Source of the DNA: Membranipora membranacea | Taxonomy: Eukaryota > Bryozoa > Gymnolaemata > Cheilostomatida > Membraniporidae | Assembly (NCBI GenBank): GCA_914767715.1 | Contig: OU612071.1 | Span: forward strand, 13,809,493 to 13,873,492 | Length of the DNA: 64,000 bases | Direction of reading: 5' to 3' | Shown: piece by piece, positions 29,537 to 59,685 of the stretch | Layout: every line of letters begins with the position of its first letter | How positions within the stretch are numbered: the first letter of the stretch is position 1 | The notes under the pieces: model-generated | Databases searched by the model: none | What the model saw: only the letters and a program-made list of their open reading frames with translations | Told to the model about the DNA's origin: nothing | Position numbers and translations under genes: made by a program

Positions 29537-32500
29537 ATGGATGGAGCCGCAGCTGCTCCTCGATCGCCAGGTGATTCACAATGTAGGAGCTTCAACTGTA
29601 ACCTATATCCTTTTGATTTCTTTCGATACAGTTTAGCAGTCTATTTGTTCTAGTAAGAGTTAATCCTACTAGTTGAGGATAATTATTCTCAATATATTTT
29701 ATATGATTATAAGTTAGATCAACCAGAGAGTTTCGAAAACCCACTGTAAGGTGATCACGGCTCTCGCTGTGACAAGGTTCATACTCGGCAGCGCATCGGG
29801 GGCATGCCAAGATATGTACTGACATTGTAGAGACAGTCCCACATGTGCAAGCTGCTACACAACACAACATCTCCCTGACACACTTGCAAAAGCAGCGCGT
29901 AGGGCCTGCAGAGTGTGCACACTCTTCAGCACTAATTCCATGCACTTCTATTTTCTGTAAGTCCAAACTCTCTACATGCAGCCAGTGTTGACAGAAGGCT
30001 AGATTGTCCAACCCTGCCAAGCAAGGACAGGAAAGCGTTCAAGTTCTTTTAACAGTCCATGCCAATAGTGGCCACTCAAACAGCTTTTCAACTGCGAGAA
30101 GGGAATTTGTAATCCAGGTACAATATTTGTCCCATCTCTACACTTTCTGCAGAAATGCATATTCCTGTTTTTCCTTACATGTCAGGTGTTAGGTTTAGGA
30201 TTTGATATTTTGGCGCAATAATTGCAGTTCTACTCGTTGGCAGGAAATAGTTTATCAAGGAGTAATATTTTATACCTTGACAATATAATACTAGGTCCTA
30301 GGATATCTGCAGTCCACCGCTAACTAACAAAAAAGAGCTCTTCTCGGGATTGACTGACTGAGCGTTCTTGTATTTTTCTGTGCTATGGCACTGGGGCCCT
30401 AAGACATGTTATCTACCATCAGGGTCATGAATCGCCAGTTCTGCTTTCCCAAATGGAAATTCTGCACCAGATCCTTGAGTCATGACTCACAGCAGAGCTC
30501 AAATCCTTTGTCTGGTTGCCAGGTCCCCGCATACTTGCAGCAGTACGCCAGACATCCTATCGGTTGTCCCACCAGAGATTATCAATGTTGACCTGAAAAT
30601 ATTCCCCATTGAAGATCCACAGAGTTGTATCATTCTTAGGTTAACATTTTCTTACAACAAACACTGTTACTGAATTTTTTTCTCAGGTGACGAGGAATAT
30701 GACATAGTTCCGATACTGGAAACAGTTTCGGTAAATGAGAACCAAGCATCTGGCAACGCACATTTGTCAAGTCAGGGTTATCAGGAAGCTATCCAACCCC
30801 ATGAAGATGCCATCAGCTATTTACCGAATGCACTTCGTTTAGACGCCTGGATGCCTGGAGAAGCGACAGGTACGTAGATAAATAAGTTCAGATACTAGTT
30901 GTAGGCACACTGTAAGCTTTATCCGACACATGGCACCTGTATCATGATTAAATTATAAAATTTTAGGATATCTTATCAAATAAATAAATAAACCAACCTC
31001 AATAATGAACAGGGTCGAAAGGTATTTTTCTTTCTTGAAGAGCATTCTATAAGCAGTCTTTACGTTTCTTAGTTTGACCGCTATCCTTTTCTATAACTAA
31101 TTGGTGGGTCAGATTCTACTTTACTTGTGAAATGGTGGGACCAATCTTCAGACACTTAGAGCCATTGTTGACCAATGTTTAGAGAAAATCTAAGTATCAC
31201 TCAAACTGATTCCATCACCAATTCCTTCAAGGTTGTAGTTTTCTGGCGGCATTCGATGAGCTAGAGTAGCTCTATTATGATGTTTAGGAATTGTGTTATA
31301 TTTCTTTTTATATTTTAGAGGAAACTTTAGATGCTCTCGTGGACAATTTTGGAGCAAACCTAGCTGATCAAGGTATGTTGAAGGTTTTCCACCATGATTA
31401 TATTAATCCCTTCTTACAATACTGCAATAATTACAGACTGTCCTTAGACCAGGAACCCTGACAGAACGTGCCACTCAAGTTTTCTGCAATATTTTTTGAA
31501 AGTAAAATCTGTGCTCACTTGTACTGAGTATGAAATAATAAGTAGATTGATGATGCTCATATACTTAATAATTAACCTAGCCAGGTCACCATAACATCAA
31601 TAGTTAGGCAATTAATTATGGGGGGGGATGTTGTGACTGGAGAAGTTTGATTGGGTAGTAGCAATGATAATACCATTGATTTCCTGTGCACAATCCATGG
31701 TTTTATTTGGATAATTTAGCAGATCACGTTGATCAATTTGATGTTGTTTTTATTTGAAGAAAGAAATTTTTTAGGAGCAAGTTAAGTTCAACCTAAACAC
31801 AACAAGCCGCTCAATCAATATCATTTGTCAAACTCAAATATGATTGCAATTGATCAATTTATCAATAAACAACCCATTGATTGTGCACTGCAAGTCAATC
31901 ATAGCATCATTGCAACTAAACAATACAAAGTCATAACATCAGCCACAATTGAAAGCCTCAGTGCCTCAATGATTAAACTCCATAATATAGTCTAAGATGG
32001 TGTTAACTGTTAATCAAATCCAAATCAGTCTTTCTGTTAAAATGGTTCAAACCCCTTCAGCGTCTATGAAGTTCATAACAGGTTTTTGGCTATCTATAGC
32101 AGACAATGACGCATCCGATAGGATGTCAGCAATCCATGAGAGAGATAGTAACCGTGAGACGTCTGGACTAGGAAATAGCAGAGCTAGTATTGTCGACAGC
32201 ACAGGTAAGACAAATTCACAAAACACTTTGACATTTTTTCTGTGAAACATGTGAATTTTTATTATAATATGATACTATTTTATTATGATTACACATATTA
32301 CTGTGAGAGTTAACTCAAAGGAACCTGTGCCTTTGCTGTATCTATGCCAGGAGTTGGTCAGTGGTTAGTGCTGTTGACACGGTGAAATTAATTCACTGCT
32401 ATATTTTTCCTTTAAAGTAGCATACAACCCTGGCACCACTAGATATAAATCCACTTGCAATTTGCCTTCACAGATAGGCTACATCTCAACAATGAAAATC

Positions 32501-35500
32501 TTAGGTATAAGCTCTGGTTCTGCACCATAGGGCAGTCAGCAGCCCGTAAACCCCAATGGCTGCAAAAAAAATTAAATTAAATTGGGAAGCTGTGTTTTGT
32601 TTATAATCTCATAGAAAAGCGTAATTTTATTTTATTGAAGGCAAAAATATTGTTTCTGTAGATGAATTTTCAATTGACATGACCGTTTATATATTAAGAT
32701 TAAAACAAACAAAAGATTACTGCTTTAATTCTTGAAGCAAATACTTTTCTACATCAATTTTTTCCAGCAATAACTTTATTTTGAGAGTATTAACACTCGG
32801 CCAATCATATTGGGTATGCCTGTTACTGAAACAAAATGGTGGATGAGAGTTTGCAATTAAAATAATTAAAGTTTTCTAATTTGATTTTCTTTTATAACAT
32901 GCAAATTTAGAAGGAGTACATCATTACGCATCAAACATCAAAATCTAACTTTTGTGGTTGTCTGCTACTTTAATCTATAAATAATGCCACTAACAATCAA
33001 AGCTTATATGGAACTTTAAGTTTTGTTATTCTTTTCATTCGAGTAGCTTTATACTTTTGCATCCCAGCTATAGCTTGATTCACTGGTACTTGTTCCAATT
33101 GGCACTGGTGAATCAGAAGACTTGCTTCAAATTGTCCACAAAGATTCCAAGGGGATTGATTTAACGCTGCCAATTTATATGCCGTCATTTGATAAACGCA
33201 AGATGAAGTGATATTTAGGTTACCAGTCTTGATTTTTCTCAGTACCATATAAAGGAAAGATAATATTGGGTATTCTGTTTCAGGTGATGAGAACATGATC
33301 TATGTCCTTACTCTTGAGCGTACACGCTGGAGTGAAGAGATTCTTACCACAGCTTTGTCGCACTCTCATCTGGATGACAGTGATCGAAAGATTGTTTTGG
33401 AGGGTAAAAAATTTCATTACATTCATCGGCTCAAAAGATCTGGTAAGCCTAATGATATAACAACCGAAGACAAAAATAATTATCCACCAGGACACCAAAC
33501 CCATGCTAATGTTCACAATTTAGATCTGTGTCTTGACAGATATGGACAGAAAATTTCAAATGTCAACACATTTATCAAATTAATATTCAACTATGAAAGA
33601 TGGTGTATCCAGAGGTCTTTGTTGGCTTCAAGCATCCCATACACGCAGTTTGCTGTTATTACAGATCAGAAGAGTACAGTGATGGATGTTGCGATAGAAG
33701 ATGAAATAACTGTACAAACTTACGAGCGGAATGTGTTAAATAACTACGGTGAGCATTGGTTCCAAAACTCTTGCAAGTACTTTGCTAGAGGTTTTTAGGA
33801 AAATTTTGTTCTCTGCTGCCATTTAAATTTATTCAGTATAAGACGAATGCCTTCCAAGAGAGAAAGGAAAGTTAAATGCAAAGCAGAATAAAGGGAACAC
33901 GAATTTATGGTTTATTAAATTTCCAAGCTCGCAGGGTGCATCACTTGAAGCATTATGATAGACGAGAATACATGTCTTAGCCTAAACAATCACACAAGTG
34001 TTTTGCATCCCTGATTAGCTTCTGATCATTAGAATGAAATTTCTTTATCTTTGTAGTCATACTCCATTCCCTTCTTGTGAATTCTAAGAATTTACAGATA
34101 AACCTATCTGATGAGCAAGACAAAAATGCGATTTTCATGCTGGTATTTATGCAATTGAGACACTTGCTCATAGGATGTTCGCTCAGCCCAAGTGATTTTG
34201 ATGGAAGAATAACATTCGACAAAGACAGCAGAGGAGATATATGGTTTCAGATCCATCTCTCTGATGCAGGTGGGTATTTTCAAATCCCAAATTTTAAGTA
34301 TCCATGCTGCCACTTTTCATTTGATGTCCTGTTCTGCAAATTGATACAGCAACAATTTACTGTTTATTTTAGTGATTTTACAAATTAACTAGTTAGTTGA
34401 ATTGTGATTTAAGGATAAGGGTAATATTTATTTGTTACTAAGATCAAAGATCTAGCAAACATAATTGGCTGGCAGATTTAAAAATCAAATTGTAGAAATA
34501 GAACTGATGAAATGTTGTGTCGTTCTTTTGTTGCCACAGATGAAAATATGTTTATCCCTATCCCTAGTTGCAAACATGCTTGGTGTGAATCCTGATAAAA
34601 ATCCTCCGCTGTTATAAAAAATGTTCATTAGTCCTCAATGAAAAACAATATCTTCAATTTTATGTAGAATGTGAAATGATCAGAAAATATATAGAGGGAA
34701 GCAGTAAACTACCCTGTTTCTGCATCGGTATGCCAGACATAAAGATGAAGTTGAAACTCCTCCCCAATCAACCTTCTAGGGAGGATGATCAGACTGAAGG
34801 TAATCATCAATAATAATGCTCAACAATTGTAACAGATGTACAGAGGGTACTCTGCAGAGGTAGTTATACTGCCTGTGGTTTTGATCCATGATGATGGGAA
34901 ATGAGTCAATAAGAGAATGAAAATGACAGACGTGTCTATGCATGCAGCTTTTTACTCAAATGAGATGACTATTGGTAGTTATATTCCTCAATTACACTTG
35001 ATGGTAATAGTATCAGATGCAATATTGAATTTTACCATTGCGTTATGATATAAATGTGGGATCTTTTTTGGGCGTATTTGACTTGTTATTAACAAATTTG
35101 AAGTTAGATATGACAATCTGAGTCATCATTGCGGAGAGGGTTACACCCTAGATTACAGGTACAGGTATTCATGGTACTCAAGCTGCACCCTATACCCTTG
35201 CCCGCCGGGATTCCGGCTACTCTCTTTACCGAAGAGGCAGAACACACAGTGGGCCACCGGTATTTAAGTCCCATTGCGCAAGGACCTGTCTAGGATGAAT
35301 GGCGAGCCAGTACTAAATTAGAAATGACTGCTGGCGCCTGGACCTCACAGATCACAAGTCTGTACCCTTAACCATCAGACCACTCCTGTCAGGACAGTCA
35401 ATCATCATTTAACTTTTAGGGAGTTACGGGGATGATAACAGAAGTGCAGATGAGAGATGTGGCCACCCAAGTAACGGAAATGGAAATTTCATCCCTACAC

Positions 35501-38500
35501 AAAGCGGAGAAGGTAGAAACAGCGAGCAAAGTGACCAATGCACTGACTCTGGCAACATTGACGCTGCCCTGGATATGCTTGTACATGATGTGGTGAAGTT
35601 GAAGAACCATCGATGTGAGTTTGTGCAAACCTTATATGGTATCTAATGGGTAGTTTACACACTAATCAAAGTCAGAAGCCAACTTGTAAAAGGCGGTTTG
35701 GCATGATCAGAAAGGTCAATCTGCCACTTCCTCATCAGGTCACCTTATCAATGCTTTGGGTTGCTATCTTTCAGAGAAGTTGCAACATGGGTAGAAGTTA
35801 GCTGAATACAATATCAATTTTACTAGTAATTTCGAATATTCTGATTGCAGTGTTTGATGTTCTCTTACAAAAGCTTATAGAGCAGGAACCACTTAACCAA
35901 CAGCACATCGAATGTCTCTCCCCTTTCTCATCTGAGTACATAGCACCAATCAATACAAAGCATGTTAGACCATACTGCCTTATATTCTACAATGAACATG
36001 ACAGGGAAGGCGCACGTGAAGAGGCAAACACCTTGAACGAGGGATTTGCATGTAAGGGGTTTGATGTCCAAATGCAGAATTGGGAACACACAAACCATCT
36101 GCTACACAGGATATCAGCTTCTATTGATGCAGTTTCTGATTCATGCTCAATCATGGTCATCAGCATCTTGGCACATGGGCAACATGGAATGGTCCGAGGT
36201 GTAGAGAAGTCAGAGATAACATTCAATGATGTTGTAGAGAAAATCAAACAGAAGCTGCCTGTACACATTCCTCTGGTAAGTTCATAAGTTAAATTAGGGT
36301 AGAAGGTAAAATATCTGAATATGAACTCAACTGATCTCAGTGTTCTAAACTTTTGTTTGGTGATAATTTATTATTTGCTCACTCATCTCATGGTGTGCTG
36401 TTTGTTGTGTAGGTTGTGCTTATTCAAGCATGTCAGCTAGCTGATGCTACAAAGCACCAAGACATAACTATGAAACGCCCACACACACTGCTTCTCATGG
36501 CAACTTCACACAATGGCATTGCTGTTAGAGGGAAATACACGGGCGCCATTGCTGAGCAGGTCAAGCTTGCTGACGAAACTACCCATATCATCGACATTCA
36601 TGAAAAGGCTGCAGCAAGTATCTGCGGAAGAAGCCCTCTCAATCAGATGCCTTCCTTTCACAGTACCCTGTCAAAGAAGATATATTTGGGAAAGCGATTC
36701 ATTCCCAATAAAGATAGCGGTGACAGCAAGCTAAGTGATGGAATAGGTGACATTTAAGACATTGATCTTGATCACTTTGAAGCTCATAAAATAATATTGT
36801 GACCTTGCATCTCAAGCTTAAAAATTGAACACACCCTGAATGTTTGGATAACACATCATTGATAAGAAGCTATAAATCGTTTACATACAGTCTTTGGTGT
36901 GAAAAGCTTGCATATTTCATCAAACCTCCACCTTTACCCGGAGTCACTAAAATGATTATGGATTATTGTTAGAAGTTTGTTAAAAACATAAGGTCTGTCT
37001 CAGACTGAGAAATACCATAATCAACAATAATATATATTTTTTATTGCAAACTGGATAATGGTTCTATAGCAAAGGCAACACAATTCATTTTTCAGATCAA
37101 TGTGATTGTGATAGCGGGATAGGCGATGATCTTCCTCCAGAAGTCTCACCACCTGATACATTGCGGGGGGGAAATAAGATGTGCTCTTTGGGGAGCATCC
37201 TTGGTAAGTAATTACAATTATTATGAGGAGAGAAACATGAAATTTCCACCCCAGATACTGTTCGGTGTCAGTAATAAGATGATCATCTTATTAAAGTCTG
37301 ATTTTGGCTGTGATAATTCAGAACCATTTTATATTTCATATTGTGGGCAAGTTGTTGCCTGACGATATTATCCAAAACATGTTAAAAATTGTGCTGTTTT
37401 GACCATACCATAGTTCCCCTACTTAGCCCTTGCAATGAATCATTATTAGTCTAAATTGACCTGCTATGTGAAACCCGGCAGCTGCGATTTGATACTCCAA
37501 AATTATTATGGGCTCAATGTGATAAACTAACTCTAAATCGTGATTCTTAATTGATTCTATCTTAGGTTATGTGGGGCAACTATCTTGACCTAGAGTCATT
37601 CTTGTTCTTAATTTTTTCTGTGTGATTTATTGCTATGATTGTGTTCACTTCTATTTAATTGTTAGGCCTTCAGCATATTGAGATGAGCCTTTGTGAAGAA
37701 AAGCGACCCACTCTATCGAAGCCGAAAAAAAGGTTTGTCTCCCATCATTTCTCTAAACATAGCTAAAGATGTGATATCATAATGATATTATTGGTCATGT
37801 TTTTCTCATGCAGGGGAAAGATTTTGGATTGATAATCGCAAACATGCCTTGACAAGCTCTGTAGTTTGGTTGTACAGAGCAGAAAATCATGTGTCATATA
37901 AGGAGAATGGTGTGCTATAACAATATACCGTGAATGTATTGTAGATCATTGTATGATCGAGAGGCAAAGAGTCTGAGAGAGCTTCAAAAAGCCTTCTGTA
38001 CTGCTGTGAAAACTGCAGTAAAAAAAAAAGGAGCAGGTAGTCCGTTCAGAGTTCTGAAATACTTAAACAGTATAGACCAACAACATCATGAAGCAACAAT
38101 ACTGCTGCCTATTGAAAAACGAAAAGACTCTGTGCAGTTTGCGTTGGATGGAAGTTGCACTAAGCTATTTATTCTGCTGCTGGCCAAAATCGACGCAAAA
38201 GTATATCTGAACAGTAACAAACTGCTGGAAAAGGCCATTTGTGAAGGAAATGAGACAATGGTGAAGGCCGTGTTACTCGCACACGAACGCAACGATGTAG
38301 AAGTTTTTCTGTCAACCTTCAATGAAAGAACAAAGCGCCGGTTGTATGATGGCAGTTGGAGCCAAGCTGTGATACAGAAACTATATCCGCACACTTCGAG
38401 CTTCTTCATTCCACGCGGACAGGCAAAAGCGAAGATGATGGCCTTAGTCTATTACAACACGTTTGAGATATCAGAAAATAGCAGACATGAAATCCAAAAG

Positions 38501-39840
38501 ATTACTAAGGGTTTAGTAGATTATGGATTCACAGTTCAGAAACCGCTCATTGATTGGACCGTAGAGAGGCTGAAGAAAGAACTACGATGTCAACTGAAAG
38601 AGATTGAAGACCAGGCCTCACTAATTCTGATTTGCCTGCATACCGAGGGTGTATTCAGTAAAATAAGTGACACTGAAGGTCACTCAATGGAAACAGATGA
38701 ACTTTTGGAAGAGCTTGATTGTATCAAAACACCCGTCCCGGTGGTTTGTATCAAGTAGAAGTATATTTAAAACTATTTCAAAACACTGGCTGCAGCAAAC
38801 TATCCATTTCCCTGAACTGAAGCCATAGATTTAGCATATATCTCTTGTAGTAACTGTTTCGGTAAAGCAACGAGATATCGATGATTCAAAAGTGCTGGTA
38901 ATGAATTTGAAAGTTTATTCCTGCATTTATCATTCATGTATTCATATTAATTAATGAAGGCCTTTAGATTACAAAATTAACGGAAGTTATTGTGAGAAAC
39001 AGTGCAATCTAACACTGCAATTAATTAACTGCAAGATTTCACACTCAGATGTTGCTACTCCAAATCTAGTGACGAGACATAGCAGGGAAAACATGTACCA
39101 TGAATGGAAATTTCTCGTATTTCAGGTAATATTGATCGACTCATATTTGCCTGACACACAGAGAGCAGAATATAAACGCGAAGGGTCACTGCGTCTATCC
39201 CGCCTAAACACCCTTGTGGTGACAGCACAAATTGAAGCTGAAAGGGAACGCCGCAGCTTTCTTGCGTACATTGTCGAGCAACTAGAGGGAGCTGATGGGA
39301 TAACAAGTTTAAACACCATGATACAACTCTGCTCAAAGCGAATGAGCTTTGAGGGTGTAAGAGATAGTGCACGTTGCACTTATCAACTCATGGCACAACC
39401 ACTGATACTGCCACGTTCAGCCACACTAGATAGGAGACAACTTGTACAAACAGGTAACAGTAAGTGCCATGACTAAGCAGACTTTGCACTATTGATTACT
39501 TAATAATACTTATTGAATTTCACCAGATTGGTGTTCTATGCAAGATATACAATCCATAAAAATCCAGTCCAATCATATTTGAAAATTGTTGATAATATGC
39601 CCAGGACTGATCAATGGTAAAGTATTACCATGGAATACATTTCCATGTCTTCTTTTGTGTGTCAAGTATAAATAATAAAACTCTTAGCTGCTTTCTCTTG
39701 CCAGCAGAGCAATAATCTATTTTGTATTTCTAGGTACTGGTCGAACTAGAAATAATATGTTATCACTTAGCTTTGGACTACGAGATCTGTTCCATGGAAA
39801 GATGAGGGATAGATTACTTTCCCAATTTTATAAGCCATAA
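29537..39840 (+). CDS. Tandem caspase / pseudocaspase protein
   Basis: Fifteen exons join in phase to a stop (3243 nt, about 1080 residues): 29537-29570, 30687-30869, 31319-31372, 32100-32204, 33284-33442, 34057-34269, 34668-34799, 35420-35614, 35851-36275, 36413-36746, 37096-37203, 37666-37732, 37945-38743, 39126-39453, 39734-39840. The start is MDGAAAAPRSP. Residues 1-125 are acidic and low complexity. Residues about 126-293 are an unrecognised, partly helical region that could be a diverged death-fold. Residues 359-611 form a caspase domain with His467 (LAHGQHG) and Cys507 (IQACQL). A Cys/Asp-rich linker follows (QCDCDSGIGDD). Residues 670-820 are helical, with an ankyrin-like stretch (LLEKAICEGNETMVKAVL). 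Residues about 830-1045 form a second caspase fold whose Cys position is Tyr943. A polyadenylation signal AATAAA lies at 40370. Caspases cut after Asp in apoptosis or inflammation; the direction of control here is unknown. Confidence 0.8.
29592..30013 (-). CDS. Possible Cys-rich, leucine-repeat-like terminal exon
   Basis: An open frame of about 140 codons follows a strong acceptor with a pyrimidine tract (cctgtccttgcttggcag) and ends at a stop 22 nt from the first exon of the opposite-strand caspase gene. The protein has many Cys (FCKCVREMLCCVAACTCG, CPRCAAEYEPC) and then a stretch resembling leucine-rich repeats (LVDLTYNHIKYIENNYPQLV). No upstream exon or signal peptide was found, so it may be the last exon of an unseen gene, a relic, or a chance frame. 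Confidence 0.3.
35188..35390 (-). repeat. tRNA-derived SINE, family 2 (second copy)
   Basis: The minus-strand head CAGGAGTGGTCTGATGGTTAAGG and GTGAGGTCCAGGC resemble A and B boxes. The body shares CAGGTCCTTGCGCAATGGGA and GCGGGCAAGGGTATAGGGTG with the copy at 4578. It ends 29 nt before the acceptor of caspase exon 35420-35614, in the zone where a branch point would lie. Confidence 0.7.
35851..36746 (+). CDS. Caspase domain 1 (catalytic), exons 9-10
   Basis: Exon 35851-36275 gives the large-subunit core: the strand VRPYCLIFYN, the DREGAREEANTL segment matching the R-x-G-T-x-x-D region that holds a substrate-binding Arg (Arg410), the strand CSIMVISILAHG with catalytic His467, and a final strand PVHIPL. 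Exon 36413-36746 starts VVLIQACQLADA with catalytic Cys507, then a small-subunit region (HTLLLMATSHNGIAVRGKYTG) that keeps the Arg of the S-x-R motif. Two departures from the usual pattern are visible: the Ser before HG is Ala, and QAC is followed by Gln-Leu where the usual sequence is x-Gly. Both catalytic residues are present, so activity is plausible but unproven. Confidence 0.85.
37945..39453 (+). CDS. Caspase domain 2 (inactive-looking), exons 13-14
   Basis: Exon 37945-38743 ends with a caspase large-subunit pattern: MMALVYYN, then SRHEIQKITKGLVDYGFTVQ, then SLILICLHTEG, which keeps a His (His902). Exon 39126-39453 begins VILIDSYLPD exactly where domain 1 reads VVLIQACQL, so the catalytic Cys is replaced by Tyr943. 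The intron between them is phase 0 at the same structural point as in domain 1 (PVPV/VILI versus HIPL/VVLI), which argues for an internal duplication. The open frame runs past the donor at 38743 to a stop at 38758, so a shorter product lacking the second small subunit is possible. Confidence 0.75.
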
Positions 39841-42316: not shown

Positions 42317-45239
42317 TCAGGGTGTAAATGAACTACAGCATTCGATGTCTCCTGCAGTGATGGTTATAAAGCCTGTGCCGATCAGGTTTTGCTCATCGTG
42401 GCTCACATACTGATAATTAGTAAGATAGTTCAAGTTCGCTGAGGTAATAGCTGTAGTGACTGTGTCCGTGCCTGTTTGAGCTATGTTGTTATCTACACAT
42501 GTACATCTGCAAATATAATTTGAGAATAGCTTTCTATGTTGAAGTGGCTCAACACCAACAAGGGTCAAAAAACAATTTTACCTCTTAGTAATTTTAGATA
42601 TAAAAAAGGAGACAAATTCATAATAAATGCAATATCATATTGCAACAATGTGTTTCGAATCTGAGCCATTGCAATGTTAAAGAAAGACATTTTGAGTGCT
42701 TTTCTAAACTACGTTTTGTAGCAATCGTATTCCGCAGAAAATAAACAATTGTAAATAAAGCTTGCACTTATTTTTCCTGGTCAAATTCTTTGGATATTTT
42801 CATGTAACTCTAAGCTGTCCAGGTACACAATAATTTTGCGGTTGTGATTGTGGTTAATAGCAAACTTACCCATTGGCACAGGTTCCTGCCAAACCACAGT
42901 CACATAGGGCAAAAGCATTAGTAGTTGTGATTACGTCAACACTGGCTGCAGCTATAGCCTGTGTTGCATACATCATTCCGGTCTGACCGTTTCTGTTCAA
43001 CACAAAGTTGGCATCAACCAGCGTGTTGCACTGTATAGTTGTCTGCAATAAATTTAATAAAATAATTGAATAAATAAATAATACAATAAATGAATGAATA
43101 TAATGAAAAAAATATGATAAATAAAATAAAGTGAATGGATAAAAAATAAAAATAAAATAAATAAATTAAAATGAATATATTGGGTAACAAGTGTTAAATA
43201 TTCATGAAGATTTTTTCCTGGCTGAAACACAATAATTAGAGTATTTTTGTTTTCAGTTACAGGGTTTTCTCCAAAGCTCTGATAACTTATATATCGCAAA
43301 GGTCATGTCAAGTCATGTGCCTACAATGTCTGAATTTGGATTTTCTGTCCTTTGAAATACTGCAATGCGGCTCAGCATTTAATTTGTAACTTATTATTTA
43401 ATTTTCGCTCTTCTCAGAGTTGGTGTGGGCTAGCAGTTAAATTAAGATGTTCAAGATCTCCTGAACAATGATTTGTCCATAAAATGTTTAATGTGTTAGT
43501 CAATGTTATTTAGACAGTTTTATAGTTTTCTTTTTTATTATTTATTATCCATGTTTTAGTGTCTTGATGTTGATGTTGATATTATGTTTATTTTAGTGTT
43601 TTAAAGTTTGATTATGTTATTTTTAGCTAGTTAATAGTAGTTTATAGTTATTAAATGTTATTTACAATTCATGCTTCGGCTCATGACATTGTATATTATA
43701 AAAGGACAGATTACTCACTCTTTGTTGACATGAACCGCCAGCTGCTTGAATCATAGCTCTTAGTTCAGTATCAGATAGACCATATGATATAGTGGTCAAG
43801 GTATTCTCACAGAAGTTAGACTCAGTAGATGATGTGTCAGAGTCAAATATGGCTGACGAAGCAGTTGTACATACAGCTTGGGCGGTGTGCGGACTTCTAT
43901 CAGCTGTTGCTGTTGCCTGAAAATATAAACCGTTTATAAAGAAGCTGCAGGTAACACTGCTAAAAAAGTTTTGAAGAGTGTGACTTTGTTCTATTGCTAC
44001 CTATCTTGCATAAAATTGGTGATTGGGATGTGCTCATCCTGTATTTGACCTCAATTTTGGAGTAACGCTTACTTAGATTACAGGATGTTTCTAAAAACTT
44101 CGAACACTGGAGCAAAGATGTCCCCAAACCCTCCAGCAGGAGCAGGGTGGGCAGGAAAATGACATTTGCACTAAGGCTGATTTATTATTAAACCACTTAA
44201 ACACCATTGTGGCAAATCAGCCTCCGTGGCCTAATGGATAAGGCATCTGCCTCCTAAGCAGGGGATTGCGGGTTCGAGTCCCGCCGGAGGTTGTTTTTTT
44301 CACTACTTAATTTTCCATCCTTAATTACAACTGCCAGTGCAGCTTTCAAAAGTCATCTCCGGTGTATGAATTAGAGCCAATAAACATTTTCTTACTAGTT
44401 GAAGGATACTATCATCACCCTATGTATGTGTTTAGAAAATTATCAGAAAAAAAAAGATTCTTACACTGAAATTCATGCAGCAATGTGTGGCATGTGTTCA
44501 TTAATAAATTCTTTTCACAAAAACTTTTACATAGGCAATTTCACTCCTTTAACTACCAGTTGCACATTGCATCCTTTGAAGGGACTAGGGAACCATGCAT
44601 TTAACACCAGAAAAGAAAAGGCTCAATTATAGAAAAAGTTTGTATTGTATCCAGCAACAAAGGTTAAAACCTCAGTATTACATCCCAGGAGCAAAGCACT
44701 TCTTATACAGTACAAAATACCAACAATCAGTGCAAGGGTGTACTCAAACAATACAGCTTCTGGTGAACCCAGAAGGTTTTGGTTTGATGCTCATCTAAAG
44801 AGTAGCAACTAAATTCAACCCTAATCCCGTGTAACCTTGTACCTAGCCAGTTTGTTGGCTCTGATATGATCGACTGAGCCTATGCCAGGTCATAGAGAGC
44901 ACCTATGGAGATATAATGAAAGTGAAACTGAATTATTTATCACTCACTATAATATATATAGGTACTTTCAGGAAAGTACCATCTGACCTGGCATTGGCTG
45001 TTTCAAACCCACCAGCCAATCAGAGCCAACATATTGGCTAGTTGTACATACCCTGGAGCAGACATCAGTGAGCCCAGATTTGCAGCACTGTACTGTAGCT
45101 GGTCCAGGGTTAGCCACTGTTGAGCCGGGTACAGATGGTCCTTGTGGATCGATGGTCACAGTTACACAAGCAGACACGGAGGTAGCAGCAAAGATATTAT
45201 CTCTTCTAAAGTAGTCTGCACAACTCTCTGGATTCACAT
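42317..45239 (-). CDS. Uncharacterised Cys-rich C-terminal domain, exons 10-13
   Basis: Four exons with boundary phases 1-0, 0-0, 0-2, 2-stop encode about 250 residues. Landmarks are NPESCADYFRRDN, a double Cys (PATVQCCKS), a middle part ending SYGLSDTELRAMIQAAGGSC, then TTIQCNTLVDANFVL, a Cys cluster (LCDCGLAGTCANGCTC) and the end GDIECCSSFTP. The same landmarks recur, with the same exon phases, in the paralogue at 62746 onward. I do not recognise the fold. It could be a lectin-like or matrix-binding domain, but nothing in the sequence proves it. Confidence 0.65.
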
Positions 45240-48200
45240 CTGGAAAGAGCCAATTTTAAATGATAATTATTAATAATAAATAATGATAAAATTAAATTAT
45301 AATATAGTCAACAGTATATAATTCTAATAATAATAATAATCAATAATATTAAATAATATTAATGATAAATAATAATTATAAATAATAATCAATAATAATA
45401 ATTAACATTCATAATAATCAATTACAATATTTTTAATAATAATCAATAATAATAATTAATATAAATAATATTCAATTATGATAATTGTTTATAATCAATA
45501 ATAATATTAAATATAAATAATAATCAATTATATTAATTATTTATAGTAATAATCAATTGTAATAACTGATGATAATAATAATCAATAATAATGATTAATG
45601 CAAATAATAATCAACAATAATGGTTAATATAAATAATCATTAATAATTATAGCTCATTACAATTGTTAATATAAGTGATTATATCAATAAATTATTTTGG
45701 AGAACAACAAACTGGTACCTAAAACATAAATTTTCTCCACCTAATAGCACATCTGTTGTGATTTACAGCACACAGGAGACCAGCTAAACTGCACAGTCAG
45801 TCTGACAGCCACAGTTGTCAGGGTGATTTAAAGGAAAGCACCGCATCAAAATGCATCACTCAAAAATTTCATTGTTTTGCTATTAAATTAGGTGCCAATC
45901 CGAGCAGTGATAGGTGGTGAACTGGTGGGAGCGGAGTTCCCACAAAGAAATATTTAGCGGGAACTCTTAGAACACAGTTCCCACTAAAGTCTGTGCCTAA
46001 AACAGTGTGAAAATGCTTCTTATTGACAAGATTTCAATCTTACTATCAATCATACTATTACAGATCTATATTTCTGCATAAGTGTTATGCTCAACAGCAT
46101 GGATTTGCATAATAACATAGATATTGCAAAGAAATTCCCTGCGGCTGCACTGCGGCCATTTTGGCTGCTGTAGACCCAGAAACTAGAGTTCCCACAAAGA
46201 AAGAAAGTCCACTTAGACCACTGGATCCAAGAAGTTTACTTACAGGGACATTTCCAACAATTTGGTAAATATATGTGTTGAGGCAGGTCTTTCTTGTCTC
46301 AGCGATGAACTATCAGACCCACAAAACTAACTTACAGACACACGTGACAGTTGGGGTGGTGAATGTACCATCGGCCTGACATGTTACAGCGATGTCTCTG
46401 TTGTTTGAGCCTGGTGTTCCGGGTGCTGTCCTGTAGGATACCTGACACTGGAAGGTGAAGCTGTCCCCGATAGGTATATCTCTGCTAGCGTAATTAACTG
46501 GACCGAGTGTAGAGGCAATCGTATCCAGCTGTGTGCCTTTACAGACTTTTTCTACAATAGAAAACACGCAATTGTTTCCCAGTCTAAATTTGCAGGTCTT
46601 TCTCATGTAAAACAATATACTTTTAAATACTATATACTGAAAATAATTCTTGTGCTCCCTATATCATTACAACTACATTTTCCAAAGTCTTTGATATCAT
46701 GACACACAAGTTTTGAAGCTTGAATCATGTAGAAAGATGCTTGGCCAGTTTTCAACAGTAACTGGAATTCCCAGGGTACTGGAATTCCCAGAGATATCAG
46801 CGGACAATCATACTGAAGCATGAAACTTAACCTTGACCTTATTTGAAAATATTTAGTTGCGTTGTATATTGTCGAACAGCCTGGTTGCTTTCAAGTTGGG
46901 AAATGAATATTTCAGTTAAAGCTTTGATTATTTCCCAAAACATTACTAACACTTGGGAAGCACTAAAACCCAGGGTCCTCCTCTCTGATAGTTACAGTTC
47001 TAATTGAACAATGAAATAAACAGCTGTGGGATTGTAACTTACGTGTGCAGGTTGGTGGACTTTTGGACCATGTGCCATCAGCCATACACTCCACAGACAA
47101 GTCCTCTGATGAGGCCTCGTAGTTAGTGTTACATGTGTATGTAAATTTATCTCCGAACCTTGTGCCAGAAGGAACCACAGTTTTAGTTTGTGTTCCACTG
47201 TCAGGAGTTCCACACATGACCTCTGATATGCAAGGAAAATCGAAAGATATAAAAAACTCATGTCCATTTATAGTTGCAATACAGAACTGCCTCGGGTAGA
47301 GACTCCTTCCTCAGACATTTGATTTTAATATTACAAGATATTTTTTAGTCCACTAGAAGTCAGACCTAAAAGTATAAACACTCAATCTTGCAGCATACCT
47401 AATGTTTGTGACAAAATAAACCAACCAACACACCCTGTGATACCGTGTGAGTAACCTTAATGCTGCTTGTTATTTTTGTTTCTGGTATCAGTAAGGGTAT
47501 ACAGACTAATGTGGCACAGAAGCATTTGAGGTCGGATGCCCTCATGACACCACCGTGACCCACCGGGAATCGAACACAGGACCCTTTGACTGAAAGACAC
47601 AGCCTTAACGATATATAACAAAAATAATTTCAAGCTTTTTGAGATAATAGTTGCAAATGCGAAACAGTTTATAAAATTTGTAGTAAATTTCAACTTGAAA
47701 ACATAAATAAAAAGTCTAAAGTGTAGCTGACATCTGTATTGGTACTTGATAACTACAAAACATATTGAAAGCAACCTTTGAACATCTTACCATGGAACTT
47801 TTCCCATTAGTACTTACTTTCACAGGTTGGGGTGGGACTAAATGTACCATCACTCAAACAGAAGGCTCGACCAGTCTTATCGGAGTTGTTATTTCCACCA
47901 GTGACCCTGTATCCTGTTACACATGTGTACTCGACACTGCCTCCAATCTATGAATTAGAGAATTATTAAATTTTAGATTGGTCATTGCCTATCCAATAAT
48001 ATCGCTACTTTAGCTTCAGGTGTAGCTTCTGGGTTACTTTAGCCTTAGTTTTGCCAGAACACTACTTTTACAACAAGGTTTCAATTAGAAAATTCCGAAC
48101 CCTAAACCTTTACTCTAAATGCATAATGTTGAATCATAGGTGAGTAATTTGGGAATAAAAATTTGAGCAGGTCTCGCTCATTCAACAATTTTGGTAAAAA

Positions 48201-51200
48201 ACCAGTTGTGTTGAGTAATTGAACATCAACGCTTTAAATTAGTATAAAACTGTCAAACCTTTTTTTTCCACTGCAGCAAACTTTTTTCGGCCTTAAACTC
48301 AGTGTATAGGCATTGAATCAATGTATCAATGAGTCTTCTAATGGAACACTCATTAAGCTTGTGATACCAACCGTTAATCGATTTGGACATTTAATGATTC
48401 GGACATTATATAAATCATTGGAAAGCTTATCGAACACAGATTCTGAAAATATTGGTTTCAGCATGACGTCATGTCATTGCGATGTGCTATTATGATAAAA
48501 GGCAGGATAAGCGTACTTGAGGGGGATTTTATCATAATCTTAAAACATGCTGCAGTAGTAATCAGGAGTACCATACTCAAATCCAAAATTTATGACATCA
48601 CTTTATTTGCAAATGACTTCCACGGTTACGAGATTTTAGCTCTTACATACATCATATACACCAGATTAAGCAATTACAGGTTAATCAATGCTTGTATCCC
48701 TTTGTCTTTTTCCACTCACTGATGATCTCAGTTTAAACAACTTCAATAGGTGATGTGCTGCAATCTCACCTCATAAGCATCACTGACATCTTCTCTCACT
48801 ATCTTCTCATCTCCACAAGGGGGCGCTTTGAGACATCGAGTCATTGGAGGTGGCGTGACTTCAGCATTACGGTCTGCAACAGTCCATTATTATATATATA
48901 TATATATATATATATTTATTTACATGAATCAACTCACAATGAAGGAATGCGGAATCTGAACAAGAGCTGTGTTCCATGGGTTCACAAAAATAATCAGAAG
49001 CTTGTGCTTAGATATAGCTTCACTCTAAGCAGTCACCATTATTGCATGCTTCACATGTACGAAATTTGGCTTCTTCCTGTCTTATTATCTACATAAAAAG
49101 AATATTTTCATGGGAGTGTCACCGATAAATTAATCAATTTTCTGTTTAATTGATCAGTTGATTAGTTGATTTTTACCAAATTCTAAATAATTGCATTTAT
49201 AAAGGAATTTAAAAAAAAAGAGTCTTTTTGCTTCTAAACATTCAACTTTGAAAGCATGATCGATTAGCTAGTCATGCAAACAAATTTAATTAATTCCGGG
49301 ACTAATTAAGACAGACATTGCGATGAAATTTTAATCAGAACTGCTTGTTTGAGTTTGAGTGTAAAATATCACCTTACCACAAACTGGAATACTAGTTGTA
49401 GACCAAGCTCCATTTGTACATCTTATGGTTGGGGGTGTACCCACCCGTAATGTGTATCCAGTTATACAAGTGTAAGAAGCCTGGGTGCCAGTGCTATCCA
49501 GTGTAGATTGCGAATTTGCAACTGTGGGTGGCGCACCGCAACCTGTTGACGGTAATTCTGTTTTGACAATGAGATATGTGTCGTCTGTTTTCTCATTAAT
49601 AGCTAGTCTTTCAATCAAAATTTGCCGTAATAAGGATCCTTAAGAAGTATTACCATTCAAAATTGAACCAAAAACTAACTTAAGCGCTCAAACTGTGCTG
49701 GGATACCTGGTAGTGGCATTTCATTATCAACCACTTCCCCAAAGTGGAGTGTGGTTGATAATGAAGTGCCACTACCAGCTAAACTAACTAAACACCAGTT
49801 ATTCAGAAAATAATTTACCTTCACAGGTCGGTAGGGGCCAGGATTGTGTGCCGATGTTGCAGGTTATAGTCACACTGGTAGCTCCATTCCTCCCTGCTAC
49901 TCTATATCCAGGTAAGCAGAGGTAAGTAGCAGAGGTACCACTGAATGACACAATCGGTGGTTGGGCAAAAGGGACGTTTTGCGGTTGAGGGCAGATTTCT
50001 ACAATAGAAAATTACTATTGACTACGCTATTGTATGAGGTAAATATATTGATTTTAATACATATTATTTGCAACAATTCCACTCTGCAATATATTAATTC
50101 AAAATAATACCCAAATACTCTTCTTTATAAAACCGTTATGTTTTATGTTATGATTTTTGTTCACAATTTGTGGTGGGGCCTAATCTGTAGATATGAATTA
50201 GGCTTTACCAAATACTGTCCTATCACTAAGGGACCTAAAGATCTCACATCACTAGTTGAACTATTTACCACTCGTGAACAATATTGTTTCTGTAAAAATA
50301 GAGCTAGATGAATCATGCCTCAATAACTTATGAAAAAGACAGAAATAACAAACATGACATTCCTTACTCGTTCATACCAATTGCTGCAAAATGATGATGC
50401 AGACAAAAATAATTAAAATTCAAATGGCCTTCATAGTTCAGCTAAGTAGGGGTAAGTTAAGGTTTAACAATTTATAATTCTCAAGATAATTGATATTAAT
50501 AATTTTATGTTAATGTTATTAAATATTAATACTATATATATATATATATAATTATCAATAAATGTCAATAAATAAATATTAATAAAATAATATTGATAAA
50601 TTAGTATTAATAAATTAAAATTAATGTTGATACATATTAATACTATTAATAAATAAATATTAATCAATAAGTGTCAATAAAGATTAATAAATTAATATCA
50701 TTAAATTAATATTAATATTGATAAATATAAATACTATCAATAAATAAATATTAATCAATAAATGTCAATAAATGAATATTAATAAATTAATATTAATGAA
50801 TTAATATCAATGAATATTAATATGTATTTGTTAATAAATAAACCAATAAACGCTAACAATAAAGTTAAAAAAAGCCCAAAGAATGTTCAAATTTGATAGA
50901 GCAGACTTACGACGTCGACAACTGGGAGCCACGGTCCACCTTCCGTTGACACATGTGATAGTGTTGGTTCCTTGAAGAACGAACCCTGGCTGACAAGCAT
51001 ACTGAATAGTGTTACCTGAGTCTATTCCTTGTCCATTAGAGACATGGGGTATTGGTGGGCAAGCGGCTGTGTAAAAGATCAATTAGATTCTTTTGTATAC
51101 ATGGGGAAATGGTTAGCCAATGCGTTGGCTCTGATTGGCTGGTGGGAAGGAAAGTTTCTATATATATTATAGTAAGTTATATATAGTTCAGTTTCACTTT

Positions 51201-55558: not shown

Positions 55559-55975
55559 TTGATTGATATATATTATTACGCTTTACTAAATAAAATGAAT
55601 CGGTTTAAAAATCTTGTTTTACCATATTTGGTCCGATATTTTGGTTTAATTATTCTACGTCCTGACCGCAAGACTCTATTGTGCATTTTGCAGGACATGA
55701 TTAGTTTAAGGATGAAAAATGAGGTGTTCTTGCCCAGAGTGGCATTATTGACAAACCTATCAAAAGTTGCCCTCCTCCTGTCACCCAGAGTGGAAAGATT
55801 CAGACCAGTTGAGATAGAAAATGAGTTGGTACCAAGAATTATTCTGATGGCTCTGTTTTGACAAAGTTCTAACAAGTTAGAGTTGTAATCAGAAGTATTT
55901 AATAACAGAGAAGAACAATACTCCAAGATGGGACGAACATACGATTTATAAGCTTGAAGCAGATGTGAAGGATTG
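55559..55975 (-). pseudogene. LINE reverse-transcriptase 3' fragment
   Basis: The minus-strand frame reads HLLQAYKSYVRPILEYCSSL, then LLELCQNRAIRIILG, STGLNLSTLGDRRRATFDRF and a stop after RFLNRFILFSKA. This is the typical C-terminal end of a jockey/CR1-type non-LTR retrotransposon polymerase (the Y-V-x-P-x-L-E-Y and Q-N-R-A-I-R-I-I motifs). Nothing of the upstream polymerase or endonuclease is present, so it is a 5'-truncated dead copy. Confidence 0.75.
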
Positions 55976-56450
55976 ACAAATTTTCGAATTTTAGAGAGAC
56001 AGTCGAATTTTAGAGAGACAGTTCGAATTTTAGAGTTATCCTATAATAAATCAAAAACAATAAATCACACATTTTAAGAGCTTTGGTGGCTAGGGCTTTC
56101 AGGGTCCCCCAGACCAACCCAGCAAGCAAGGTGATGAAACACCATTTATAGAGCCCAGCCAACTTGTCATGAGTAGGAATCAGGTGGCATTGCAATTCAA
56201 GAAAGTGTGAAGTTATAGTTTTTTTTATAGGTTTACTGTATCTGGAACATACATTGTGCAATTAATTTTATCACTTGACAACTCAGAATTTTAAATGAGT
56301 TGTTTTGCTGTTGATCAATCGTCTGATCCAGAAGGAAAAAATGGTATCTTGTAAAACCGAAACGAATTAGAGTCAGGACCACTTCAGATTTATCAGAGCT
56401 AACAAACATATATTGTGCTTGCCAAAAGTCAAACCCAATTTGAATTTCAT

Positions 56451-56990
56451 TAGGGTCAAAAGCGCCATGTAATATTTTATTTCCCATGACATCATAATCC
56501 AGATTTTGCTACCTTGGCAACCAGTTTCTCTCATATTGTATGTCTGCAAATGGAGCATTGATGATGAAGCTGGTTTTATAACAAATTTATTTTAGGGTCA
56601 AAAGTGCCATGTTATATTATATTTCCCATGACATCATAATCCAGATTTTGCAACCTTGGCAACCAGTTTCTCTCATCTTGTATGTCTGCAAATGGAGCAT
56701 TGATGATGTAGCTGGTTTTATAACAAATTCATTTTAGGGTCAAAAGCGCCATGTTATATTATATTTCCCATGACATCATAAAGCGGATTCAAACACACAA
56801 GGCCCAATATCTCTGTTTGATGAAACTGTCAGAGAGTACTTACTAGCACTTTACCAGTGTGTACAAAATAATGTTCTGAGCTGCACCGTTATGGATAATC
56901 CACATTTTGCAACCCGGGCAACCAGTTTGTCTCAGATTGTATGTCTGCAAATGGAGCATTGACAATGAAGCTGGTTTTATAACAAAGAAA
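56451..56990. repeat. 142-bp tandem repeat, interrupted
   Basis: AGGGTCAAAAGCGCCATGT recurs at 56452, 56594 and 56736, each 142 bp apart. Units contain TTTCCCATGACATCATAA, CTTGGCAACCAGTTTCTCTC and GGTTTTATAACAAA. The third unit is split by about 110 bp of unrelated sequence (from 56781) and resumes with ATAATCCACATTTTGCAACC. Confidence 0.8.
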
Positions 56991-58482: not shown

Positions 58483-58770
58483 CTGCAGAACAAAAACATG
58501 CATTCAAAAAAGGTGAGAGCTTGGAAAAGAGATTATCGTGGCCGACACCAGCTAATGAGGGATGTTACTCAAGTCAACACAGCCCATCAACTACACAAGA
58601 AAAGCTATTAGGATTAAATCTGCAGAACAAAAACATGCGTTCAAAAAAGGTTTATGAGAGCTTGGAAAAGAGATTATCGTGGCCGACACCAGCTAATGAG
58701 GGATGTAACTCAAGTCAACACAGCCCATCAACTACACAAAAAAAGCTATTAGGATTAAATCTGATCCTTG
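58483..58770 (+). repeat. Two-copy coding-like tandem repeat
   Basis: Two units offset by 141 bp inside (GAGCTTGGAAAAGAG at 58517 and 58658) and 137 bp at the start (CTGCAGAACAAAAACATGC at 58483 and 58620). They stay in one open frame encoding SLEKRLSWPTPANEGCYSSQ and HSPSTTQEKLLGLNL twice. The first copy lacks 4 bp at the join. No known family was recognised. Confidence 0.6.
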
Positions 58771-59506
58771 TGTCCTGGTCATGTGCCAGGAAGGATATAC
58801 CCCATAAACCAAATTTTTCCAGTGATATTCAAATACAAATTTACATAGACATATGCATAAATACAGTTTGCACCCATATCTCTGGGTGTTGACAGTCTGT
58901 TATAATACAAGTTTATCTAGTAGATATGCAATAATAGAATCAAAACCATAAGACCTCAACGGAACCTAACAAACCCTAATGTTATTTGCCGATGCAAATC
59001 CTTGGGGATCTTGAGTCCTATATATTACACCCCTTATTAGTGACACAAGGATCTCGCTAGGCTTCCGTGCTTAAGAGCTAAATAACCAACCTGGTGTTTA
59101 CAAACTCAGCAATTTTTGCCTTCCCTACCATTTTTTGCCTATACTACGCCCCTGTCAAACCAGCTTTCCCTTACGGTCACATCACTCATCGATAATGGCC
59201 AATCCCAAAGATATAATATTGTTAAATCTATAGGTCAAAGAAAGTTTAATGTGGAATCAAAATACTTGTTGATCCACTATCCTAAAGCCAGAGAAAAAGA
59301 ATAAGGGCGAATTGATATAGACACTATGGTCTCTACTCAGAGTAACAATCAGTCAAACATAATATATTCTTGTTACACAACAGTTAATTGTATGATATAC
59401 CAGCTCTTCGGTTCAGAGGTAACTGCTTGGTTGTTAACTTACCTGATTTGCTCTTAAATATTATGCTATATATTTGGACAACATTGAAATAAAACAGTAA
59501 GCCAAC

Positions 59507-59685
59507 AACATGTCCACAACATGTCCACAACATGTCCACAACATGTCCACAACATGTCCACAACATGTCCACAAGATGTCCACAACATGTCCACAACATG
59601 TCCACAACATGTCCACGATATGTCCACAACCTTTCCGATATGTCCACAACCTTCCCGATATGTCCACAACCTTTCCGATATGTGT
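59507..59685. repeat. Minisatellite of CATGTCCACAA units
   Basis: About ten copies of the 11-bp unit CATGTCCACAA, then three to four copies of a 20-bp derivative GATATGTCCACAACCTTTCC. Open frames in several phases here are a by-product of the repeat. Confidence 0.9.

Follow-up and report, generated by a model that had tools for sequence, protein, structure and literature searches.

Caspase activity depends on dimerization (PMC12198278). In Acropora caspase-X, an inactive caspase domain is followed by an active one on a single chain, and the inactive domain reduced killing by the active domain; one A. digitifera prediction reportedly carries four caspase domains (PMC4715348). In mammalian caspase-16, the domain was duplicated by exon duplication, one copy (N-terminal) is dead, and a same-chain pair was proposed from a homology model; the protein is closest to caspase-14, and conservation of the dead domain does not extend to echidna (PMC12198278). 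Caspase-X (PMC4715348) and caspase-16 (PMC12198278) have both already been compared with c-FLIP and caspase-8. c-FLIP(L) carries Arg315 and Tyr360 in place of the catalytic His and Cys and is able to take the place of one caspase-8 partner (PMC7586951). The gene described here lies in a 64,000-nucleotide stretch of Membranipora membranacea DNA (contig OU612071.1, positions 13,809,493 to 13,873,492, forward strand; the window) and is predicted to encode an active-looking caspase domain (D1) followed by a degenerate one (D2).

The gene was modelled as a spliced open frame on the + strand (29537-39840) comprising 15 exons with GT-AG introns and encoding 1183 amino acids with 0 internal stops (Table 1). 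A candidate exon at 37814-37909 in the first model was dropped, having introduced stops and left a 35-base intron 5' of exon 13. Residue numbers in the preliminary description of this locus run 102 lower (His467, Cys507, His902 and Tyr943 are His569, Cys609, His1004 and Tyr1045 here); it therefore used a shorter N-terminal model with the same later exons. No further copies of the gene were found in the 64-kb window by tblastn, which returned one stray N-terminal match (E=0.17).

D1 (exons 9 and 10 spliced) is a full-length C14 caspase domain with both large- and small-subunit regions, matching PF00656 at E=4e-13 over profile positions 3-233 of 233. His569 (36174-36176), Gln607 and Cys609 (36431-36433) provide the His-Cys dyad and QAC motif, as had been claimed for the His and Cys, and align with SHG and QAC of CED-3. 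The DREG stretch containing Arg512 aligns with TRNG of CED-3 and, in a four-sequence profile, with caspase-8 DRNG. Arg512 would be the substrate-pocket Arg for Asp-directed cleavage; Arg641 is a candidate second pocket Arg, by reading. A QMP...LSKKIYL stretch at the end of D1 resembles CED-3; phmmer returned this as an insignificant second stretch only (0.4 bits), though the Pfam match extends to the profile end. The closest PDB sequences were CED-3 and an ancestral effector caspase (E 2.4e-4 to 1.2e-3). No sequence feature marks D1 as inactive, and it is described as active-looking. A protein search with D1 alone returned 1 of 95 candidates at E<=1 (P0001, matching exon 9, presumably the window's own gene), and a search with D1 and D2 together returned none at E<=1 from 7989 candidates scored. 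Scans of viral contigs and GTDB genome contigs gave 5, 2, 27 and 83 pattern-matching stretches and 0 relatives.

D2 is related to D1 with a Smith-Waterman score of 124 (1000 shuffles: mean 33.6, standard deviation 4.8, maximum 57). Its large-subunit (p20) half is 22% identical to D1, compared with 51% and 44% to two other proteins, P0003 (source 'ena') and P0004 (source 'lgn'). These are 48% and 42% identical to exon 13 as a whole, and the likeness ends where exon 13 ends. An AlphaFold model of exon 13 had a caspase fold (mean predicted local distance difference test score, pLDDT, 72.8), and both relatives carry PF00656. D2 alone gave no PF00656 match in Pfam. A U-box match to D2 alone fell below the Pfam cut-off and was rejected.

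CLHTEG of D2 aligns ungapped with CLMSHG of P0003 and P0004, placing Glu1006 (38645-38647) at the catalytic His position. There is no gap around SHG, and therefore the catalytic His is replaced by Glu1006, with His1004 two residues upstream; the earlier assignment of a retained catalytic His had picked the wrong residue, His1004. The Cys position is occupied by Tyr1045 when counted without gaps from the intron that D1 and D2 have in common, and by Thr1049 in three automatic alignments. No Cys occurs between residues 1031 and 1107, so the loss holds under both alignments. Of the claim that Tyr stands in place of Cys, the absence of Cys stood; the Tyr belongs to the ungapped reading. The pocket Arg is also lost, DREGAR/DRNGAK of the relatives being EISENSR in D2. 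With no His-Cys dyad, D2 is not an active caspase by sequence. In D2 p20, 5 of 17 shared columns were kept in the catalytic loops and 30 of 50 elsewhere (p=0.048; three sequences, loops picked after being seen). The predicted protein itself shows the D1 motifs, the relationship of D2 to caspases, and that His, Cys and pocket Arg have gone from D2. D2 looks like a complete pseudocaspase, more degenerate than had been supposed. Together with the spliced frame, these features support the original proposal that a single reading frame holds an active-looking caspase and, after it, a pseudocaspase.

Fused inactive and active caspases are already known, and the hedged remark in the preliminary description that no known family has this architecture fails in general, given caspase-X (PMC4715348) and caspase-16 (PMC12198278). 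Like caspase-X, the present gene combines, in its predicted sequence, one active-looking caspase domain with an inactive one, for which a c-FLIP/caspase-8-like intramolecular pair is proposed, the single chain here coming from a gene model. Like caspase-16, it has a visible duplicated exon structure with one copy dead and a proposed same-chain pair. In both published proteins, however, the inactive domain comes first, N-terminal to the active one, whereas here the active-looking D1 precedes a helical region and the dead D2. These are the only differences, and since the defining inactive-then-active order is absent, the gene is not a member of either type; it may nevertheless work like them. 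An active-then-inactive order was not found among the matches listed from the open-access literature, judged by titles and abstract starts. In work on caspases of mussel, bivalves, amphioxus and Nematostella, the passages covered described expansions or mutations of caspases but no tandem of this kind. The analogy drawn earlier with caspase-8 and c-FLIP was reasonable: c-FLIP(L) is likewise a pseudocaspase, with Tyr360 for Cys as Tyr1045 in the ungapped reading, and Arg315 for His where D2 has Glu1006 (PMC7586951). c-FLIP(L) and caspase-8 are separate proteins joined via DED domains, of which c-FLIP has two; Pfam gave no DED match in residues 1-460 of the present protein, a lack of match that is no proof of absence.

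P0003 and P0004 resemble D2 in having a helical region followed by a caspase p20. They differ in keeping the catalytic His and the DRxG Arg, and neither protein includes the Cys half. Their closest PDB sequence is caspase-8 p18. On the simplest reading of these sequences, the D2 ancestor bore an active-site His and was silenced after the split from P0003 and P0004. More tentatively, at somewhat below even odds, the gene may be an independent, order-reversed single-chain caspase and pseudocaspase: a C-terminal caspase, active at first and carrying a sensor-like helical region, would have been joined to the rear of a second caspase before losing its activity, with P0003 and P0004 representing the stage before silencing.

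The favoured reading, by analogy with c-FLIP(L), is that the gene encodes a self-regulating caspase in which D2 is the same-chain dimer partner of D1 (probability roughly 0.5). D1 would be the sole catalytic unit, and D2 a one-time caspase whose active site is gone and whose fold remains. As C-terminal partner on the same chain, in the manner of c-FLIP(L) for caspase-8, D2 would allow D1 a single active site in each chain and control the timing or strength of switch-on. The acidic linker (exon 11) would be a possible cleavage place freeing D1. The intramolecular D1-D2 dimer, the direction of its regulation (activation or inhibition) and the linker cleavage are inferred.

Several observations weigh against this reading. 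The p20 part of the exon 13 model is moderately confident (means of 10-residue blocks 52-77 from residue 161 on), and its fold is not fully independent evidence because the model's alignment included caspase-like relatives. The similarity of exon 14, the small-subunit (p10)-like half of D2, to exon 10 is weak, its score being reached by 45 of 2000 shuffles. Fold prediction of this half, which would bear the dimer strand, was poor in isolation (mean pLDDT 51.9), and by inspection it is without the QMP stretch of D1. The p20 identity of D1 and D2 is only 22%, so co-evolution as a pair is unsupported. Other observations concern the joining of the domains: the intron 10 donor is weak (10% of window GT sites score equally well), the interval separating the domains contains one ATTAAA, at 37290, and an in-frame ATG occurs at 37934, immediately 5' of exon 13.

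The latter three features bear on the strongest alternative, two adjacent genes, in which a caspase would end after exon 10 and a separate pseudocaspase would start near 37934; the latter might act in trans, as c-FLIP does, or have no action. Exon 10 read past its donor meets a stop within four codons, and P0003 and P0004 begin with Met approximately 20-30 residues ahead of the part shared with exon 13. Against this, the ATG at 37934 sits by inspection in a weak start context, with T at -3, and there is no AATAAA between 36747 and 37944, whereas an ATTAAA (40162) and an AATAAA (40370) lie downstream of exon 15. Joining exon 10 straight to exon 13 was rejected as out of frame; exons 11 and 12 restore the frame. 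They were the best of 22 in-frame bridges (score 67.5), equalled in 0 of 200 interval shuffles, of which 147 gave some bridge and 53 none. This score is not independent of the model because the splice and codon tables were built from the remaining exons and introns of this gene. Two genes are rated unlikely, and D1 and D2 are probably on one chain in the predicted transcript.

Another alternative, less likely again, is that D2 serves as a scaffold or binds substrates, the helical region and the dead caspase fold recruiting D1 targets or an upstream sensor rather than pairing with D1. The helical region 5' of D2 p20 is the best-predicted part of the exon 13 model (block means 86-92 over P0002 residues 11-120, with one block at 68) and is common to the relatives: of the 76 columns in which P0003 and P0004 agree, 43 are kept here. 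It gave ankyrin-repeat matches in BFVD, a viral library, but these were weak (E 0.05-0.11), and up to E=5 Pfam listed nothing of the ankyrin kind for P0002-P0004. The need of caspases for dimerization (PMC12198278) also argues against a scaffold. That D2 is a functionless, decaying relic, a duplicated caspase half being lost, is very improbable: the active site is gone, the p10 half is weak and D2 p20 is further from each relative than they are from one another (67%), but approximately 376 D2 codons (exons 13-14) contain no stop or frameshift, a 274-codon open frame from one given place has a chance of 1.5e-8 at the local stop rate (uncorrected for the number of places), and non-catalytic columns are better kept than catalytic ones.

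The prodomain (residues 126-395; 33284-34799, + strand) has no recognised fold in Pfam and no caspase similarity, and could determine what recruits the protein. A third degenerate caspase in these residues was rejected: comparisons with D1, D2, P0003, P0004 and two helical regions scored no better than shuffles (300 per comparison, at least 90 of which reached the observed score). A CFAP54_N match on residues 1-460 was below the Pfam cut-off and was also rejected.

Table 1. Exons of the predicted gene, in window coordinates.
Feature	Position	Strand	Content	Basis or remark
Exon 1	29537..29570	+	Start codon, residues 1-11	ATG and GT donor; least certain end of model
Exon 2	30687..30869	+	N-terminal region	Gene model
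Exon 3	31319..31372	+	N-terminal region	Gene model
Exon 4	32100..32204	+	N-terminal region	Gene model
Exon 5	33284..33748	+	Prodomain, residues 126-280, without recognised fold	No Pfam match reaching cut-off
Exon 6	34057..34269	+	Prodomain	Gene model
Exon 7	34668..34799	+	Prodomain	Gene model
Exon 8	35420..35614	+	Linker 5' of D1	Unstructured judged by reading alone
Exon 9	35851..36275	+	D1 large-subunit (p20) half, Arg512 and His569	PF00656 in spliced D1; CED-3 alignment
Exon 10	36413..36746	+	D1 QAC motif with Cys609 and small-subunit (p10) half	PF00656; CED-3 alignment
Exon 11	37096..37203	+	Acidic linker D1-D2, unstructured by reading alone	Top-scoring bridge of 22 chains; 0/200 shuffles equal
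Exon 12	37666..37732	+	Basic linker	Supplies frame required by exon 13
Exon 13	37945..38743	+	Helical region (residues 772 to ~925) and D2 p20 half, Glu1006	AlphaFold model; relatives P0003/P0004
Exon 14	39126..39453	+	D2 IDSY motif (Tyr1045, 39144-39146) and p10-like half	Phase-0 intron position as in D1
Exon 15	39734..39840	+	C-terminal tail and stop codon	Gene model

Elsewhere in the window, three open frames with sushi (SCR) repeats were found on the - strand at 46316-49639 (E 1.8e-9, 2.4e-7 and 1.6e-4; 3 of 10 other open frames scanned) and are probably one split gene. This neighbour, the split genes and the animal type of the caspase would point to an animal source on sequence grounds. 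A tRNA-Arg (anticodon CCT) lies on the + strand at 44219-44293 (Rfam, 65.6 bits). An 11-base tandem array at 59505-59670 contains approximately 15.5 copies of ACAACATGTCC, and tandem pairs of 142- and 141-base units, matching at 95%, occupy 56450-56781 and 58483-58763. A 154-residue open frame on the - strand (55579-56040) gave no Pfam match up to E=0.1; it presumably resembles the end of a non-long-terminal-repeat reverse transcriptase.

Caspases activate by pairing, and one carrying its own dead partner could be a one-chain switch, without the concentration-driven pairing of other caspases. If the independent, order-reversed origin is right, evolution would have arrived repeatedly at built-in pseudocaspase partners, caspase-X and caspase-16 being the other cases. 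Confirmation of the reversed order would suggest that domain order is not critical and that fusions of this kind have arisen more than once, and the gene would offer a compact model for the tuning of active caspases by pseudocaspases.
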